Assembly: GCF_030812335.1 (NCBI RefSeq)
Contig: NZ_JAUSSN010000003.1
Location: 62,001 to 126,000, forward strand
DNA length: 64,000 nt
Source: Pseudarthrobacter oxydans
GTDB lineage: Bacteria; Actinomycetota; Actinomycetes; Actinomycetales; Micrococcaceae
Direction: 5' to 3'
Every line of letters starts with the position of its first letter. Position 1 is the stretch's first letter. The position numbers and the translations under genes were made by a program. Below, in pieces: positions 48,983 through 55,379 of the stretch. A model generated the notes under the pieces. That model worked only from the letters and a program-made list of their open reading frames with translations, had not been told where the DNA came from and did no database searches.

Positions 48983-48999
48983 GGTTCACAGGGTGAACC
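48983..48999. promoter_or_regulatory. 17-bp palindrome GGTTCAC-AGG-GTGAACC, candidate operator
   Basis: Perfect 7-bp arms around AGG, lying in the gap between argS and the flavoprotein operon and immediately upstream of TACGCT (49002-49007), a possible -10 for the latter. This is a classic dimeric-repressor-type site. Confidence 0.5.
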
Positions 49000-49111
49000 A
49001 CTACGCTGATTCATACGTTGTCATGGGAGTATCCGCTGCGGGCCTCCGCGTGCGGGTCACAGCTTCCCGCCATTCCCCCTTCCGACCGTCGCCAGAGAAA
49101 TGAGCAGCCGC

Positions 49112-49549
49112 ATGAACACCTCTCTCCGCAAAAGCGTTTTCGTCGGCATTGCCGGACTGTCCCTGGCCGGGTCCGCGGCCGGCTGCGCGCCGGGGCAGGC
49201 CACCGGCACCCCGGCAAGCAGCGCCGCGCCGTCAGCCGCCGCGGGCAGCGCCAGCTACAAGGACGGCACCTACAGCGCCGACGGCAACTACGTCTCGCCG
49301 AACGGCACCGAGACCGTGGGCGTGACCCTGACCCTGGCCGGCGGCGCCGTGTCCGACGTCCAGATCACCCAGCATCCGTCCAACCCCAACACCAGGAAGT
49401 TCCAGGGCGAATTCGCCGGCGGCATCCAGTCCCAGATCGTCGGCAAGAGCCTCGACGAGATCAAGGTCTCCAAGGTGGCCGGTTCATCGCTGACCAGCGG
49501 CGGCTTCAACCAGGCCGTGGACAAGATCAAGTCCGAGGCCACGTCGTAA
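49112..49549 (+). CDS. FMN-binding domain lipoprotein
   Basis: 145 residues. The lipoprotein signal is MNTSLRKSVFVGIAGLSLAG followed by SAAGC. A Ser/Ala/Gly linker precedes a small FMN-binding domain (YKDGTYSADGNYVSPNGTETVGVTL...FAGGIQSQIVGKSLDEI). The flavinylation loop reads AGSSLTSGGF where classic domains have SGATxTS, placing Ser instead of Thr at the presumed attachment residue. ATG at 49100 is an alternative start. ApbE is encoded next, so covalent FMN attachment is expected. Located outside the membrane. Confidence 0.87.
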   Translation: MNTSLRKSVFVGIAGLSLAGSAAGCAPGQATGTPASSAAPSAAAGSASYKDGTYSADGNYVSPNGTETVGVTLTLAGGAVSDVQITQHPSNPNTRKFQGEFAGGIQSQIVGKSLDEIKVSKVAGSSLTSGGFNQAVDKIKSEATS

Positions 49550-49603
49550 ACAGCCAGTCGTAGACACCGCGTCATGACCAGCCAGTAGCCAGCAGGAGGA
49601 AAC

Positions 49604-50476
49604 GTGCCGCATCCGGGCTGGGCGGATTTCAGTTTCGACGGGATCGGTACCCGCTGGGACATCTCAACACCGTCCCCGCTCTCCGGCGCGCTCCGCCGCC
49701 GGCTACTGGATGCGGTCGCGGACTACGACGCCGCGTGGTCCCGCTTCCGGCCGGACTCCCTGATCGCGGCCGCCGCGCGGCAGCCGGGCCGCTACACGCT
49801 GCCGGCCGGGGCAGCCGCCCTGGGGCCGCTCTACGCAACCCTGTACCGGCTTACCGGCGGGGCCATGACCCCGCTGATCGGCGGCAGCCTCGAACACCTC
49901 GGCTATGACGCCGGTTACTCCCTCCGCCCGAGCGGCCCTCCGCTGCCCGCCCCGCCCTGGGACGGGGTGCTCGACTGGCAGGGCACCGTCCTGACCACCT
50001 GCGCCCCGGTGGTGATCGACGTCGGCGCGGCCGGTAAGGGCCAGCTGGCAGATCTGCTGTCCGCCGAACTGCGCGACGGTGGCATCAGCGAGCACTTCAT
50101 CGACGCGAGCGGTGACCTGGTCAACGCGGGATCCTTGCCGGTAAAGGTGGGCCTGGAGCATCCCTATGATCCGGCCCGGGCCATCGGCATCGTCAGCCTC
50201 GGGGCCGGGGCGCTCTGCGCCTCCGCTGCCAACCGGCGCGCCTGGGGCGACGGGCTGCACCACGTGCTAGAAGGCACCACCGGCGCCCCGGTGCGCACCG
50301 TCGTCGCCAGCTGGGCGATGGCGGCGAGCGGCATGGTGGCCGACGCGCTGGCAACCGCGCTGTTCTTCGTCGAGGGGCCCCGCCTGCGGGAGGAATTCGA
50401 CTGTTCCTGGCTGACCGTCCACTCGGACGGCCACGCGGAGTATTCGGCCGATTTTGAAGGGGTGTTGTTTACATGA
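49604..50476 (+). CDS. apbE: FAD:protein FMN transferase (ApbE)
   Basis: Transfers FMN from FAD to a Thr/Ser of target proteins. 290 residues; SFDGIGTRWDIS opens the fold, VVIDVGAAGKGQLADLLSAEL and HFIDASGDLVNAG form the Mg/FAD site, and GLHHVLEGTTGAPV is the conserved HIxDPxTG-like region. No signal peptide is evident. AGGAGG is 5 nt before the GTG. ATGA overlap with the next gene. Confidence 0.93.
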   Translation: MPHPGWADFSFDGIGTRWDISTPSPLSGALRRRLLDAVADYDAAWSRFRPDSLIAAAARQPGRYTLPAGAAALGPLYATLYRLTGGAMTPLIGGSLEHLGYDAGYSLRPSGPPLPAPPWDGVLDWQGTVLTTCAPVVIDVGAAGKGQLADLLSAELRDGGISEHFIDASGDLVNAGSLPVKVGLEHPYDPARAIGIVSLGAGALCASAANRRAWGDGLHHVLEGTTGAPVRTVVASWAMAASGMVADALATALFFVEGPRLREEFDCSWLTVHSDGHAEYSADFEGVLFT

Positions 50477-52008
50477 CCGCCACCATCTCCACGCCCATGG
50501 GTTCGCGGCTGGACACGGCCCTGGGCAGGTTCACGATGTACCGGCTGGTCCTCTGGGTCCTCGCCGTGCTCGCCGTCTACAGCCTGCTGCTCGACGTGCT
50601 CGGCTGGCTCACCTTCGGGCTGCCGGAGATGATCGCGCACCTGGCGCTCTGCCTCGGCCTGACGTATGCCTCCAACCGGGTGATCGCGGCGGTGTTCCGC
50701 GTGCGCCCGCACTCCGAGTCGTCCCTGATCACGGGCCTGCTGCTGTACTTTCTCTTCTGGCCGACGCAGTTCTCGGCGGGCCTGCAGTACCTGGACCTGG
50801 CCGGCGTTGCCCTCGCCTGTGTGCTCGCGTCGGCGTCCAAGTACGCCCTGGCCTGGCGCGGCCGCCACATTTTCAATCCGGCGGCGGCCGGCGCGTTCAT
50901 CACCGGGCTGACCGGACTCAATATCGCCACCTGGTGGGCCGCCACGCCCGCGATGCTCTGGCTGGTGCTGCCGGGGGTCCTGCTGGTGCTCTACCGGGTC
51001 CGCAAGCTGCTGATGGCGTCTGTGTTCATCGTGGTGGCGGTGTCGATCGTGTCCGTGGAACTGCTGCGTGCCGGCATGGGAGCGGGCGAAGCGCTGTGGC
51101 AGTCCATCGCCCAGCGCCCGGTCCTGTTCTTCGTCGGCTTCATGCTGACCGAGCCGCTCACCCTGCCGCCGCGCCGCTGGCAGCAGCTGGCGCTGGCCGC
51201 CGTCGTCGGACTGCTGTTTGCGATTCCCTACAATTTGGGTTTCGTGGCCAATTCCCCCGAGCTGGCGCTGCTCGTGGGGAACGCGCTCGCCTTCGCCGCC
51301 GGCCAGCGCGGCCGCATCCTGCTGCGCTTTCGGGGCTCGCGCCCGCTGACCCCGACGACGACGGAGTTCAGCTTCCAGCCCGAGCGGCCGCTCCGCTTCA
51401 CCCCGGGACAGTACATCGAGCTGAACCTGCCGGAAGGCAAGGCCGACCACAAGGGCCGGCGGCGGGTGTTCAGCCTTACCAGTCCCCCGGACTCCCCGGA
51501 ACTGACCATCGGCGTGGGAACGGCCGAACCGCGGTCCACGGCGAAGCGGTCGCTCCTGGCCCTGGAGCCCGGTGACGAGCTGACGGCCACCACCGTGGGC
51601 GGCGACTTTGTCCTGCCCCGGAGTCCGGAGGCGCCGGTGCTGCTGATAGCGGCCGGCATCGGCATCACCCCCTATCTGGCCCAGCTGTCGGGGGGCTCCG
51701 CCGGGGACCGGGATGTGGTCCTGCTGTACCTGGCCAGGACGGCCGCCGAACTCGCCTACGCCGCGGAACTCGAACGCACCGGGGCCCGGGTCATCGCCCG
51801 GCTTGCCGACGGTACCGCGCCGCCGGCGTTCATGCAGGATGCGGGCGCCGTCCGGATCGACGGCGCCACGCTGAAGGACCTCGTCCCGGATATCGCGGGC
51901 CGCATTGTCTATGTCTCGGGCTCGCCGGCGAGTGTCCGCTCCCTCCGCGCGGCCGCCCGCCGGGCCGGGGCGCGGAGGATCCATGTGGACTCCTTTGCTG
52001 GCTACTAA
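50473..52008 (+). CDS. RnfD/NqrB-like membrane domain fused to ferredoxin reductase-like domain
   Basis: 511 residues. Residues ~20-275 contain about eight helices, with ESSLITGLLLYFLFWP and HIFNPAAAGAFITGLTG as in RnfD/NqrB, and W-A-A-T158-P-A-M-L, which resembles the SxATPL flavinylation motif of RnfD. Residues ~283-511 are an FNR fold: RPLRFTPGQYIELNLP, RRRVFSLTSPP (flavin), VLLIAAGIGITPYLAQL (NAD(P)H) and IVYVSGSPASVRSL. It would carry electrons from NAD(P)H through FAD across the membrane to the flavinylated lipoprotein. Direction and acceptor are inferred. Confidence 0.87.
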   Translation: MTATISTPMGSRLDTALGRFTMYRLVLWVLAVLAVYSLLLDVLGWLTFGLPEMIAHLALCLGLTYASNRVIAAVFRVRPHSESSLITGLLLYFLFWPTQFSAGLQYLDLAGVALACVLASASKYALAWRGRHIFNPAAAGAFITGLTGLNIATWWAATPAMLWLVLPGVLLVLYRVRKLLMASVFIVVAVSIVSVELLRAGMGAGEALWQSIAQRPVLFFVGFMLTEPLTLPPRRWQQLALAAVVGLLFAIPYNLGFVANSPELALLVGNALAFAAGQRGRILLRFRGSRPLTPTTTEFSFQPERPLRFTPGQYIELNLPEGKADHKGRRRVFSLTSPPDSPELTIGVGTAEPRSTAKRSLLALEPGDELTATTVGGDFVLPRSPEAPVLLIAAGIGITPYLAQLSGGSAGDRDVVLLYLARTAAELAYAAELERTGARVIARLADGTAPPAFMQDAGAVRIDGATLKDLVPDIAGRIVYVSGSPASVRSLRAAARRAGARRIHVDSFAGY

Positions 52009-52085: not shown

Positions 52086-52158
52086 GCCCTCGTAGCTCAG
52101 GGGATAGAGCGTCTGCCTCCGGAGCAGAAGGTCGTTGGTTCGATTCCAATCGAGGGCA
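52086..52158 (+). tRNA. tRNA-Arg (anticodon CCG)
   Basis: 73 nt with a perfect GCCCTCG/CGAGGGC acceptor stem, D-arm AGCTCAG..GGGATAGAGC, anticodon loop CTCCGGA (CCG reads CGG), T-arm TTGGTTCGATTCCAA and discriminator A. The CCA end is not encoded. Confidence 0.95.
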
Positions 52159-52164
52159 CAGAAA

Positions 52165-52358: not shown

Positions 52359-53078
52359 TTAGAGGTGGCGGAGGTAGCGCTCCGGTGATTCGAGAAACGA
52401 CCGCATGTTCGTGACCATATCCAGGTCCTCCCACGCCCGGGGACGTAGACCCCAGGGCCCGGCTTCCAGAATCTCCGCCCCGGGAAGTGCTGCCAGTACA
52501 GGCGAGTGCGTAGACATGATGACCTGCGAGTGGCCGGCGGCTAACAGGTCCTTCAAGACCGTGAGGAGGGTCAGGCATCCTTGGAAGGACAATGCGGATT
52601 CTGGTTCGTCGAGCACCCACAATCCGTCCCCCCGAAAGCGGTCCACGGCCAGCTCCAAGAAAGACTCGCCATGAGACATGTCATGGAAGGGGATGTCCCC
52701 TGTCCTGCTCGGGTTTTCCTCGAGGTAGGTGAAAAAACCGTGCATGGTTTCGGCGCGCAGAAAGTAGCCACGCCTGGTGGTACCGGCGTTCCGGACCAGG
52801 TGGAGGTGATAGGAAAGCTTAGATTCCGTGGACCTGGTGGTGTGCCGAGCTCCAGTTGATCCCCCTTCCGCTGACAAGCCGTACGCCAAGGCGATTGCCT
52901 CCACCAGCGTGGATTTACCGGACCCGTTTTCGCCGACCAGGATCGTGGCGGGAGTCAGATCGAGTCCCTGGTCGAGGACCTGGGCGACGGGAGCCAGGGA
53001 TGCTGGCCACTGCCCACGGTCCAGGACATTGCTCGGATCCTCTGTCAGACGCCGGATTGGATAGTCGCGCAGGGGCAT
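52359..53078 (-). CDS. Lone AAA/SMC-type ATPase
   Basis: 239 residues. Walker A is VGENGSGKSTLVEAIALAYG, the signature-like region is DMSHGESFLELAV, Walker B is LWVLDEPESALSFQG, and the switch His is in VIMSTHSPVL. It is a compact RecF/SMC-like ABC ATPase without coiled coil or fused nuclease (OLD-type TOPRIM absent). Start is 6 nt after AAGAAT. It is the first gene beyond tRNA-Arg. Such single-domain proteins are widespread with unknown role; defence or DNA repair is possible but unsupported. Confidence 0.8.
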   Translation of the reverse strand: MPLRDYPIRRLTEDPSNVLDRGQWPASLAPVAQVLDQGLDLTPATILVGENGSGKSTLVEAIALAYGLSAEGGSTGARHTTRSTESKLSYHLHLVRNAGTTRRGYFLRAETMHGFFTYLEENPSRTGDIPFHDMSHGESFLELAVDRFRGDGLWVLDEPESALSFQGCLTLLTVLKDLLAAGHSQVIMSTHSPVLAALPGAEILEAGPWGLRPRAWEDLDMVTNMRSFLESPERYLRHL

Positions 53079-53159: not shown

Positions 53160-54041
53160 TCATTCCTGCCGTATCTTCCGCATGACCGCGGAGATCCACC
53201 CTGTCCGGAGCCTCGGAGCCAGCCACGACTCGAGCTGGCCGGCGCTCCACGACGGTGCCCTCACCAGGATAATTTCCCGGTCCTCCCGGTAGGCCTCGAG
53301 GATGCCGGCCTTGCTGGACAGCCTGCGGACCAGCCAGTCGACCTTGAGCGAGTAGACGTGGGCGATCTCGTCGCTCAGGCCGATCTCGAAGTCATACCCG
53401 CCGGGCTCGTCGCGGACTTCCTCGACCTCGAACGGCGGCTCCGGCTCCACAGTCTCGGCGGTGCCGCCGTCGACGTCTTTTAGACGGTCGATAAGTCGTC
53501 GTGCGTACGCTGCCATCGCGTCGTCCGGCGACTCCAGAGAACTGCGGAGGGCCGCGCGCGCGCTTACCACGGGGAGCCCGGGCAGGAAGTTGTGGTCCTC
53601 ACCTTTGCCGCTGACCAAGACCGGGTGGTTGTTGTAGGCGTAGCGCTCGTGGCTGTGGCGCGCGACGTCCCAGCGCGCCGACGGCACACGGTCCCGGACG
53701 ACTTCCGCGAGGTAGGACACTAGTCCGTCCAGGAGTGTCAGGGACTCCAAGGAGAGGGTCCGCTCCTTCTCTGCTGTATACCGCTCCCAGGACGGCCATC
53801 TCTCCCGCGGCACGGAGGCCGGGTCGGTAGCGCCGGGGTCGTCCAGACTGGTGAATCGGGACAGCATCCAGCGCCACAGCGGAACGAGACTCTCGGGGGT
53901 CCCGTCGAGGAAGACAGCCGGGTCCTGTCCGTCGTCCGCCAGGCGTTCCCGGAGCCGCTCCAGGGCCGGGCCGCGTTCGTCGAGATACTCCTGCAGGGCC
54001 GCGGCGGCTTGGGCTTTGCTCAGGTTCAAATAGTTCGTCAT
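53160..54041 (-). CDS. Hypothetical protein, two-part soluble protein
   Basis: 293 residues, no signal or membrane helix. The N-terminal half is helical and acidic (ALQEYLDERGPALERLRERLADDG; FTSLDDPG). The centre contains RHSHERYAYNNHPVLVSGKGEDHNFLPG. The C-terminal half is mixed, with EIAHVYSLKVDWLVRRLSSKAGI and PSWSAGQLESWLAPRL. GGGGGA lies 5 nt before the ATG; the open frame upstream to 54110 is rejected. I do not recognise the family. Separated from the ATPase by 81 bp on the same strand. Confidence 0.65.
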   Translation of the reverse strand: MTNYLNLSKAQAAAALQEYLDERGPALERLRERLADDGQDPAVFLDGTPESLVPLWRWMLSRFTSLDDPGATDPASVPRERWPSWERYTAEKERTLSLESLTLLDGLVSYLAEVVRDRVPSARWDVARHSHERYAYNNHPVLVSGKGEDHNFLPGLPVVSARAALRSSLESPDDAMAAYARRLIDRLKDVDGGTAETVEPEPPFEVEEVRDEPGGYDFEIGLSDEIAHVYSLKVDWLVRRLSSKAGILEAYREDREIILVRAPSWSAGQLESWLAPRLRTGWISAVMRKIRQE

Positions 54042-54134
54042 GAAATCCCCCAAAGGTCGTTCTCGAAGCGTACACAGCAGGAATGGGTGAGAGACGGGAG
54101 CGTGCACCATCGAGCACCGCTTCTCGAATGCTCA

Positions 54135-54689: not shown

Positions 54690-55121
54690 TCAGGGGACCG
54701 TGACGCGCTCGTCGGTGTGCACGGACTGCGGGCCAGTGGACGGGCAGTTGATAGAGCGCATGTCCCGGTTTCCATTAATGAAGGTGTACCGGACGCAGGC
54801 ACTGACTGTCCGGTGCTCGGCCCAGAAACCTCCGCTGGTGGTCAGGTGGTTCCGGAGGTAAAGATCGGCGACGAGGACCCCGTCGGCCGTCCATGTCAGG
54901 GAGTAGATGTTGGTAAGGCTCCCGGTGAGCCGTCTCGTGAGCTCACTGCGCTCCCCAGGGTCAACGGCCGCTGTGATGTGCGTGAAGGTCGCCATGGCCT
55001 CGTTGGACTGGTCCCGGATGGCGTTCCGGCCCATCTCCTCGATGCTTGTCCGGGCACAGGAGGCCAGGGTCAGGACGAGGGCCACGACGGCCACTGCGGT
55101 GCGCGCCCTGCCACCCCTCAT
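54690..55121 (-). CDS. Putative secreted lipoprotein
   Basis: 143 residues. Arg-rich n-region, hydrophobic AVAVVALVLTL, lipobox LASC with Cys near 22. The mature part has NAIRDQSNEAMATFTHITAAVDP and a paired Cys pattern (VSACVRYTF, SINCPS). GTG/ATG at 55130/55127 are alternatives; GGGGG lies 8 nt before the chosen ATG. No family recognised. Confidence 0.65.
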   Translation of the reverse strand: MRGGRARTAVAVVALVLTLASCARTSIEEMGRNAIRDQSNEAMATFTHITAAVDPGERSELTRRLTGSLTNIYSLTWTADGVLVADLYLRNHLTTSGGFWAEHRTVSACVRYTFINGNRDMRSINCPSTGPQSVHTDERVTVP

Positions 55122-55379
55122 CTCCATCACCCCCGTTCATACATATCAGCTCAACCGTCGACCTTGGCCACGATCTTCAAGGAGTCCCCCAGCTTAATGC
55201 ACTCCTCATGTCAGACCCTTTCCGCCGCCGGCGACAATGACCGCCGGTCGTGGCAGATGCTACTTGCAGGCTGCGACACTTCCGCCCACAAAAGCGGCCG
55301 CATAGCGATACGATGCATTCAGCACCGTCCGGGGACACCCCGGGGGCTGGTGCCTGCACTGATGGCCTGAGGGAACACA

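Follow-up and report, generated by a model that had tools for sequence, protein, structure and literature searches.

We analyzed a 64,000-nucleotide stretch of the Pseudarthrobacter oxydans genome (GCF_030812335.1, contig NZ_JAUSSN010000003.1, positions 62,001 to 126,000), hereafter the window, in which three consecutive genes encode a predicted flavin mononucleotide (FMN)-binding lipoprotein, an ApbE-family enzyme that attaches FMN from flavin adenine dinucleotide (FAD), and a fusion of an RnfD-like membrane domain with a reductase. A sequence-only reading had described this trio, its AGGAGG ribosome-binding site and its ATGA overlap, and the sequence, the Pfam match for ApbE and three confirmed open reading frames, all on the + strand, bear that anatomy out. 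The trio probably carries electrons from cytosolic NAD(P)H to a covalently bound FMN outside the membrane. Gene order, coupling, domain make-up, the lack of a recognizable leader on ApbE and the lack of PF02508-type subunits are read from the sequence. The features are as follows.

49100..49549, +: predicted FMN-binding lipoprotein, 149 residues, NqrC/RnfG-type FMN-bind fold (Pfam match below cut-off, structure model, 35-row alignment)
49100..49186, +: predicted lipoprotein signal peptide, with the codon of lipidation residue Cys29 at 49184-49186 (sequence inspection)
49493..49495, +: Thr132, predicted flavinylation site in a GSSLT motif (alignment)
49594..49599, +: AGGAGG ribosome-binding site of apbE (sequence)
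49604..50476, +: ApbE, FAD:protein FMN transferase family, 290 residues, without a recognizable signal peptide (PF02424, E 1.6e-28)
50473..52008, +: fusion, 511 residues, single chain, ATGA-coupled to apbE (sequence; AlphaFold model)
50473..51306, +: RnfD/NqrB-like membrane domain of the fusion, approximately residues 1-278
51307..52005, +: FNR-type (ferredoxin-NADP+ reductase) FAD/NAD(P)H reductase domain of the fusion, approximately residues 279-511

The trio and its conservation

The lipoprotein consists of a leader with Cys29 followed by a C-terminal FMN-bind-like domain. On inspection, the leader has a basic start, a hydrophobic stretch and an AAGC lipobox-like site, and such a site was seen in 54 of 70 loci. 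The Pfam match to FMN_bind (E 0.0017) is below the cut-off; a fold search with the model gave weak results, the best matches in the PDB being CbFMN4, RnfG and NqrC (top E 4.4e-3), with lipoyltransferase and IscU chains ranking among them. GSSLT is a variant of the SGATxT/S flavinylation motif and fits what is expected of an FMN-bind protein. We placed the attachment site by the residue of SGATxT that we take to bear FMN; this Thr132 column holds T or S in 34 of 35 alignment rows, the exception being L090 with D. No other FMN-bind-like protein was found in the genome (next match E 0.39). Because the lipoprotein is thus the sole candidate, we rejected a cytosolic FMN-bind target for ApbE, having sought only targets of the FMN-bind type.

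The AlphaFold model of the fusion has a mean pLDDT of 91.2 and a pTM of 0.88. Reductase-dominated matches alone were returned by Foldseek with the whole model (among the first 50 listed) and by a whole-chain profile (among the first 60 listed); RnfD emerged from a second look and also from a profile search restricted to the membrane domain, in line with the sequence-only reading. The PF00175 NAD-binding domain lies C-terminal in the same chain, and the reductase part has no Pfam match for a 2Fe-2S domain. PF02508, which covers the integral subunits RnfA/E and NqrD/E, had 0 matches in the genome (the control matched in 4 of 14 known genomes), agreeing with the earlier remark that no other Rnf subunit is present. 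A full Rnf or Nqr complex was rejected on this ground. The fusion can be read as RnfC and RnfD of Rnf combined in one chain, with an FNR domain replacing RnfC.

By our count of rows, 30 of the 36 other genomes of the genus carry a full-length or nearly full-length fusion, split over two frames in one of them (G030), so that ordinary laboratory actinobacteria could serve for first experiments. No such match was seen in 22 other genomes of the order drawn alongside. Among named proteins, the nearest belong to Pseudarthrobacter and Arthrobacter. A wider genome scan, taken as its best 80 loci, found the fusion or part of it in L051-L090, and the carriers span three phyla: Arthrobacter-type genera, Microbacterium, Herbiconiux, Aeromicrobium, Nocardioides, Dictyobacter, Ktedonospora, an Anaerolineaceae metagenome-assembled genome (MAG) and several Patescibacteria. 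Co-occurrence, proposed earlier as a check, is strong: FMN-bind, ApbE and fusion genes stand together in 69 of 76 loci, window included, with distinct fusions. Both partners lie within 1.5-kb flanks in 21 of 30 loci drawn from Patescibacteria. At E 0.001, the membrane domain has matches in 14 of 396 genomes of the host phylum (that of the host included), several of them weak and not fusions; at E 1e-50, a match was obtained in 74 of 379 Patescibacteria genomes, counting those to the reductase alone. The trio is real and well conserved, and the question worth further work is where its flavin is attached.

Damaged fusions also occur: one is interrupted by a stop (L043), one is a C-terminal remnant (G009) and one is split over two frames (G030), which suggests decay in some genomes or assembly errors. 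In L083 (genome G791, a MAG without an ApbE match), the fusion has no nearby FMN-bind or ApbE gene and is directly followed by a gene for a DsbA-like thioredoxin, so a thiol link is possible there.

ApbE without a leader and the site of flavin attachment

The N-terminus of the window ApbE, the single ApbE found in its genome, is not hydrophobic and has an in-frame stop just upstream; neither the signal peptide nor the lipobox of classical exported ApbEs was found on it. The sequence-only reading had passed over this missing export signal. As a leader test, we considered every start codon in the range from 60 residues before to 20 residues after the ApbE-domain start and took the highest 15-residue hydrophobicity that any of them allowed, with a threshold of 1.6. 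None of 68 trio ApbE rows reached it (median 0.15, maximum 1.59 in L070), and 68 of 71 FMN-bind rows did. Among the ApbE rows, L017 and L037 represent a single gene; a further four, in which the profile match starts late, were left out (L027, whose ApbE is split over two frames, L041, L061, at a contig end, and L086). In 49 of 67 rows the ApbE domain starts no more than 12 nt after the FMN-bind stop. In the Patescibacteria draw, 0 of 13 measurable ApbEs reached 1.6, one of them being that of L070 again; of the remaining 17 loci, 9 have ApbE matches that start too late and 8 show no ApbE. Control ApbEs of the host phylum reached the threshold in 23 of 30 loci, which were taken from the best-scoring matches and lean to classical ApbEs. 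None of the 18 ApbE rows checked in carrier genomes did so.

Some of these results count against tying the leaderless state to the trio. The test gauges hydrophobicity rather than applying SignalP, and two rows, L070 and its duplicate L175, fall barely short of its threshold at 1.59. Leaderless ApbEs also occur outside the trio, in 7 of the 30 controls, and four of the 18 rows from carrier genomes are second, non-trio ApbEs (L193, L194, L195, L221). The trait is not unique to the trio.

Trio ApbEs are of two types, an actinobacterial one of approximately 290 residues and one of approximately 250 residues that is shorter by approximately 40 residues in the middle. The shorter type, seen for example in L072, L082 and L088, is found in Chloroflexota and in most Patescibacteria loci examined; two Uhrbacteria loci, L070 and L079, combine the actinobacterial type with the GSSLT motif.

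A leaderless ApbE beside a leader-bearing target raises the questions of when and where the covalent FMN is attached and whether Sec can export a chain that carries it. Because ApbE has no export signal and its predicted target has one, FMN attachment likely precedes export of the target. The usual alternatives (PMC9973259) are that the cofactor is loaded inside and the protein exported by the twin-arginine translocation (Tat) system, or that the protein passes through Sec and receives its cofactor outside. Cytosolic ApbEs are known, with intracellular targets (PMC12052999); among the open-licence papers listed, we found no title that pairs a leaderless ApbE with an exported target.

Tat export does not provide a general answer. 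A TatC gene turned up in 7 of the 18 carrier genomes searched, that of the host included, and in none of the other 11, all of them small (0.5-1.5 Mb) Patescibacteria-type MAGs in which its absence can reflect incompleteness. A twin arginine in the n-region stretch was seen in 11 of 70 loci, in several of these upstream of the likely start. On these counts we rejected Tat as the general route; it is possible in the host of the window. The whole trio is present in 9 of the 11 small genomes without TatC (not in L083 and L084), 10 of which have one ApbE gene and 1 none, and FMN_bind, tested in six carriers, had a single match in five. Several small genomes at least thus combine a leaderless ApbE and one anchored target with no visible Tat route.

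We tentatively propose that a cytosolic ApbE places FMN on the unfolded or partly folded precursor, which then passes Sec/YidC, even in Patescibacteria that lack Tat; we hold this as a conjecture with less than even odds. If true, it would break the rule that Sec-exported flavoproteins acquire their cofactors outside, and FAD export would no longer be needed. It is rather doubtful, though conceivable, that ApbE instead acts outside after export by an unrecognized route, with extracytosolic flavinylation as in NQR and Listeria. The characterized exported targets are, as far as is known, flavinylated outside. Most ApbEs also seem to be secreted, according to the passages cited from a review (PMC12052999). 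However, no hydrophobic leader was seen in 68 rows, most of which have little or no room for one, and this route would require external FAD of the kind that FmnA and EetB help supply in Listeria (PMC9973259).

Direction of electron flow, neighboring genes and acceptor

We propose the following order of events. In the cytosol, ApbE would load the lipoprotein precursor with FMN at Thr132, taking it from cytosolic FAD, and the loaded precursor would be exported, likely by a Sec-type route, and lipid-anchored. In the C-terminal domain of the fusion, as judged from its family, FAD would accept electrons from NAD(P)H. Electrons may then cross through the RnfD-like domain, which would stand in the place of RnfD between RnfC and RnfG, but with outward flow. 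Finally, the lipoprotein FMN might hand them to an extracytosolic acceptor, perhaps most readily a metal, for example Fe(III) or Mn(III/IV). The most economical path leads from NAD(P)H through FAD and a membrane flavin to the lipoprotein FMN; its cofactors, direction and acceptor are inferred.

Several observations weigh against this account. Two loci (L059, L083) carry the fusion with neither partner nearby, and in 9 of the 30 Patescibacteria loci at least one partner is missing within 1.5 kb. The flavinylation motif [STD]GA[ST]x[ST] occurs in 0 of 32 membrane-domain rows, to which the RnfD Thr column could not be aligned with confidence, and because no motif is present the membrane flavin is assumed. 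The NqrB/RnfD arm of Rnf and Nqr is usually drawn as a return path, so the outward direction is our own reading. Flow could in principle run inward, with an extracytosolic donor reducing the lipoprotein FMN and the chain delivering to NAD(P)+, as in RnfG to RnfD to RnfC: the membrane domain is homologous to RnfD, and in forward-running Rnf this arm brings electrons inward to NAD+. We nevertheless regard inward flow as very improbable. There are no PF02508 ion-pump subunits to power uphill reduction of NAD+, an aerobic soil-type host presumably offers no obvious low-potential donor, and FNR-type domains mostly work from NAD(P)H outward. It is also improbable that the fusion acts as a reductase of membrane quinone or O2, in the manner of NADPH oxidases (NOX), with the FMN protein as an accessory; the retention of FMN-bind and ApbE in 69 of 76 loci and the RnfD match of the membrane domain speak against it.

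The neighbors of some copies offer a concrete acceptor to test. Beside the trio or fusion we found NRAMP (L065, L070, L079), a ZnuA-type binding protein with an ABC ATPase (L073), P-type cation ATPases (L062, L064, L079, L080), VIT1 (L166) and, on the opposite strand, ZIP (L162). Metal transporters thus occur in nine loci and make up 10 of 40 scanned neighbor proteins, a share that is no rate: of 133 listed proteins we scanned 30, and of 125 downstream open reading frames 10, selected for their position and strand and in part by eye where they looked like transporters. The remaining neighbors are either unrelated or hard to interpret, for example a two-component system downstream in Microbacterium (L062). 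Both this choice by eye and the window copy itself, which adjoins no metal transporter, add to the points on the other side; a metal acceptor is a lead rather than a result, and the surroundings of the window copy lend it no direct support.

Upstream of the window copy, and divergent from it, lie arginyl-tRNA synthetase (argS) and a pyridoxal phosphate (PLP)-dependent decarboxylase of lysA type, which we take to be lysA; this pair also lies upstream in nine Arthrobacter-type loci (L051-L056, L058-L060). A tRNA-Arg follows the fusion at 52086-52159. A tRNA-bordered island was rejected, as no second copy of the tRNA-Arg 3' end was found in the window. A promoter scan found 0, and terminator-like elements (3 observed vs 1.1 expected) included none that was usable. 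Just past the tRNA-Arg is an AAA_21-type ATPase (52359-53078, - strand, Pfam E 5.3e-14), followed by open reading frames at 53160-54110 and 54690-55130 with no Pfam matches; the region behind the tRNA-Arg is perhaps variable.

Comparison with known systems

The trio is a member of a published class. Meheust 2021 (eLife, PMC8238504) defines NQR/RNF-like systems in 127 clusters from 127 genomes, mainly Actinobacteria and the Candidate Phyla Radiation (CPR), in which one chain joins an NqrB/RnfD domain to PF00175 and NAD(P)H is the proposed donor for an extracytosolic FMN-binding domain. In the parts of that paper cited here, VIT1 is reported in six clusters, and the main text has VIT1 and no NRAMP, manganese, zinc or P-type transporters. 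Huang 2024 (mSystems, PMC11334425; preprint PMC10979944) models a pair from Ktedonobacter (Chloroflexota), retains the unidirectional model, describes a membrane subunit without a flavinylation site and infers a non-covalent flavin site in it (PMC11334425). In our trio, ApbE and FMN-bind genes are both adjacent, and the FMN-bind protein has a lipobox-type signal by inspection and hydrophobicity. The sequence-only reading was right except on novelty: its proposed NAD(P)H-to-outside flow is supported and matches the unidirectional model of the class, but the one-chain fusion that it set apart from known flavinylated extracytosolic systems had already been published (PMC8238504, PMC11334425, PMC10979944).

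Core anatomy is identical in the NQR/RNF-like systems and the trio (membrane and PF00175 chain, FMN-bind partner, flavinylation cluster), which also share the proposed outward flow and the lack of an RnfD-type flavinylation site. To this class, which comes without biochemistry in the accounts cited, we add an Arthrobacter-type genome, leaderless ApbEs, small-genome carriers in which TatC was not found, and NRAMP, ZnuA-type and P-type ATPase neighbors. Rnf (RnfABCDGE) resembles the trio in its RnfD fold, RnfG-like FMN protein and NADH-side reductase function, but the genome of the trio has no RnfA/E-type subunit and its reductase is FNR-type and fused. Na+-NQR has NqrB-like and NqrC-like parts and, in NqrF, an FNR-type NADH domain, whereas the trio uses one chain and has no NqrD/E-type subunit or 2Fe-2S domain match. 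Listeria FmnB/PplA likewise passes electrons to outside acceptors through a flavinylated extracytosolic protein; its ApbE-like FmnB, however, works outside, with FAD export depending on FmnA and EetB (PMC9973259), whereas the trio ApbE is leaderless. The cytosolic ApbE of Klebsiella also lacks a signal peptide, but it modifies a soluble fumarate reductase (PMC12052999), and the likely target in the trio has an export signal.
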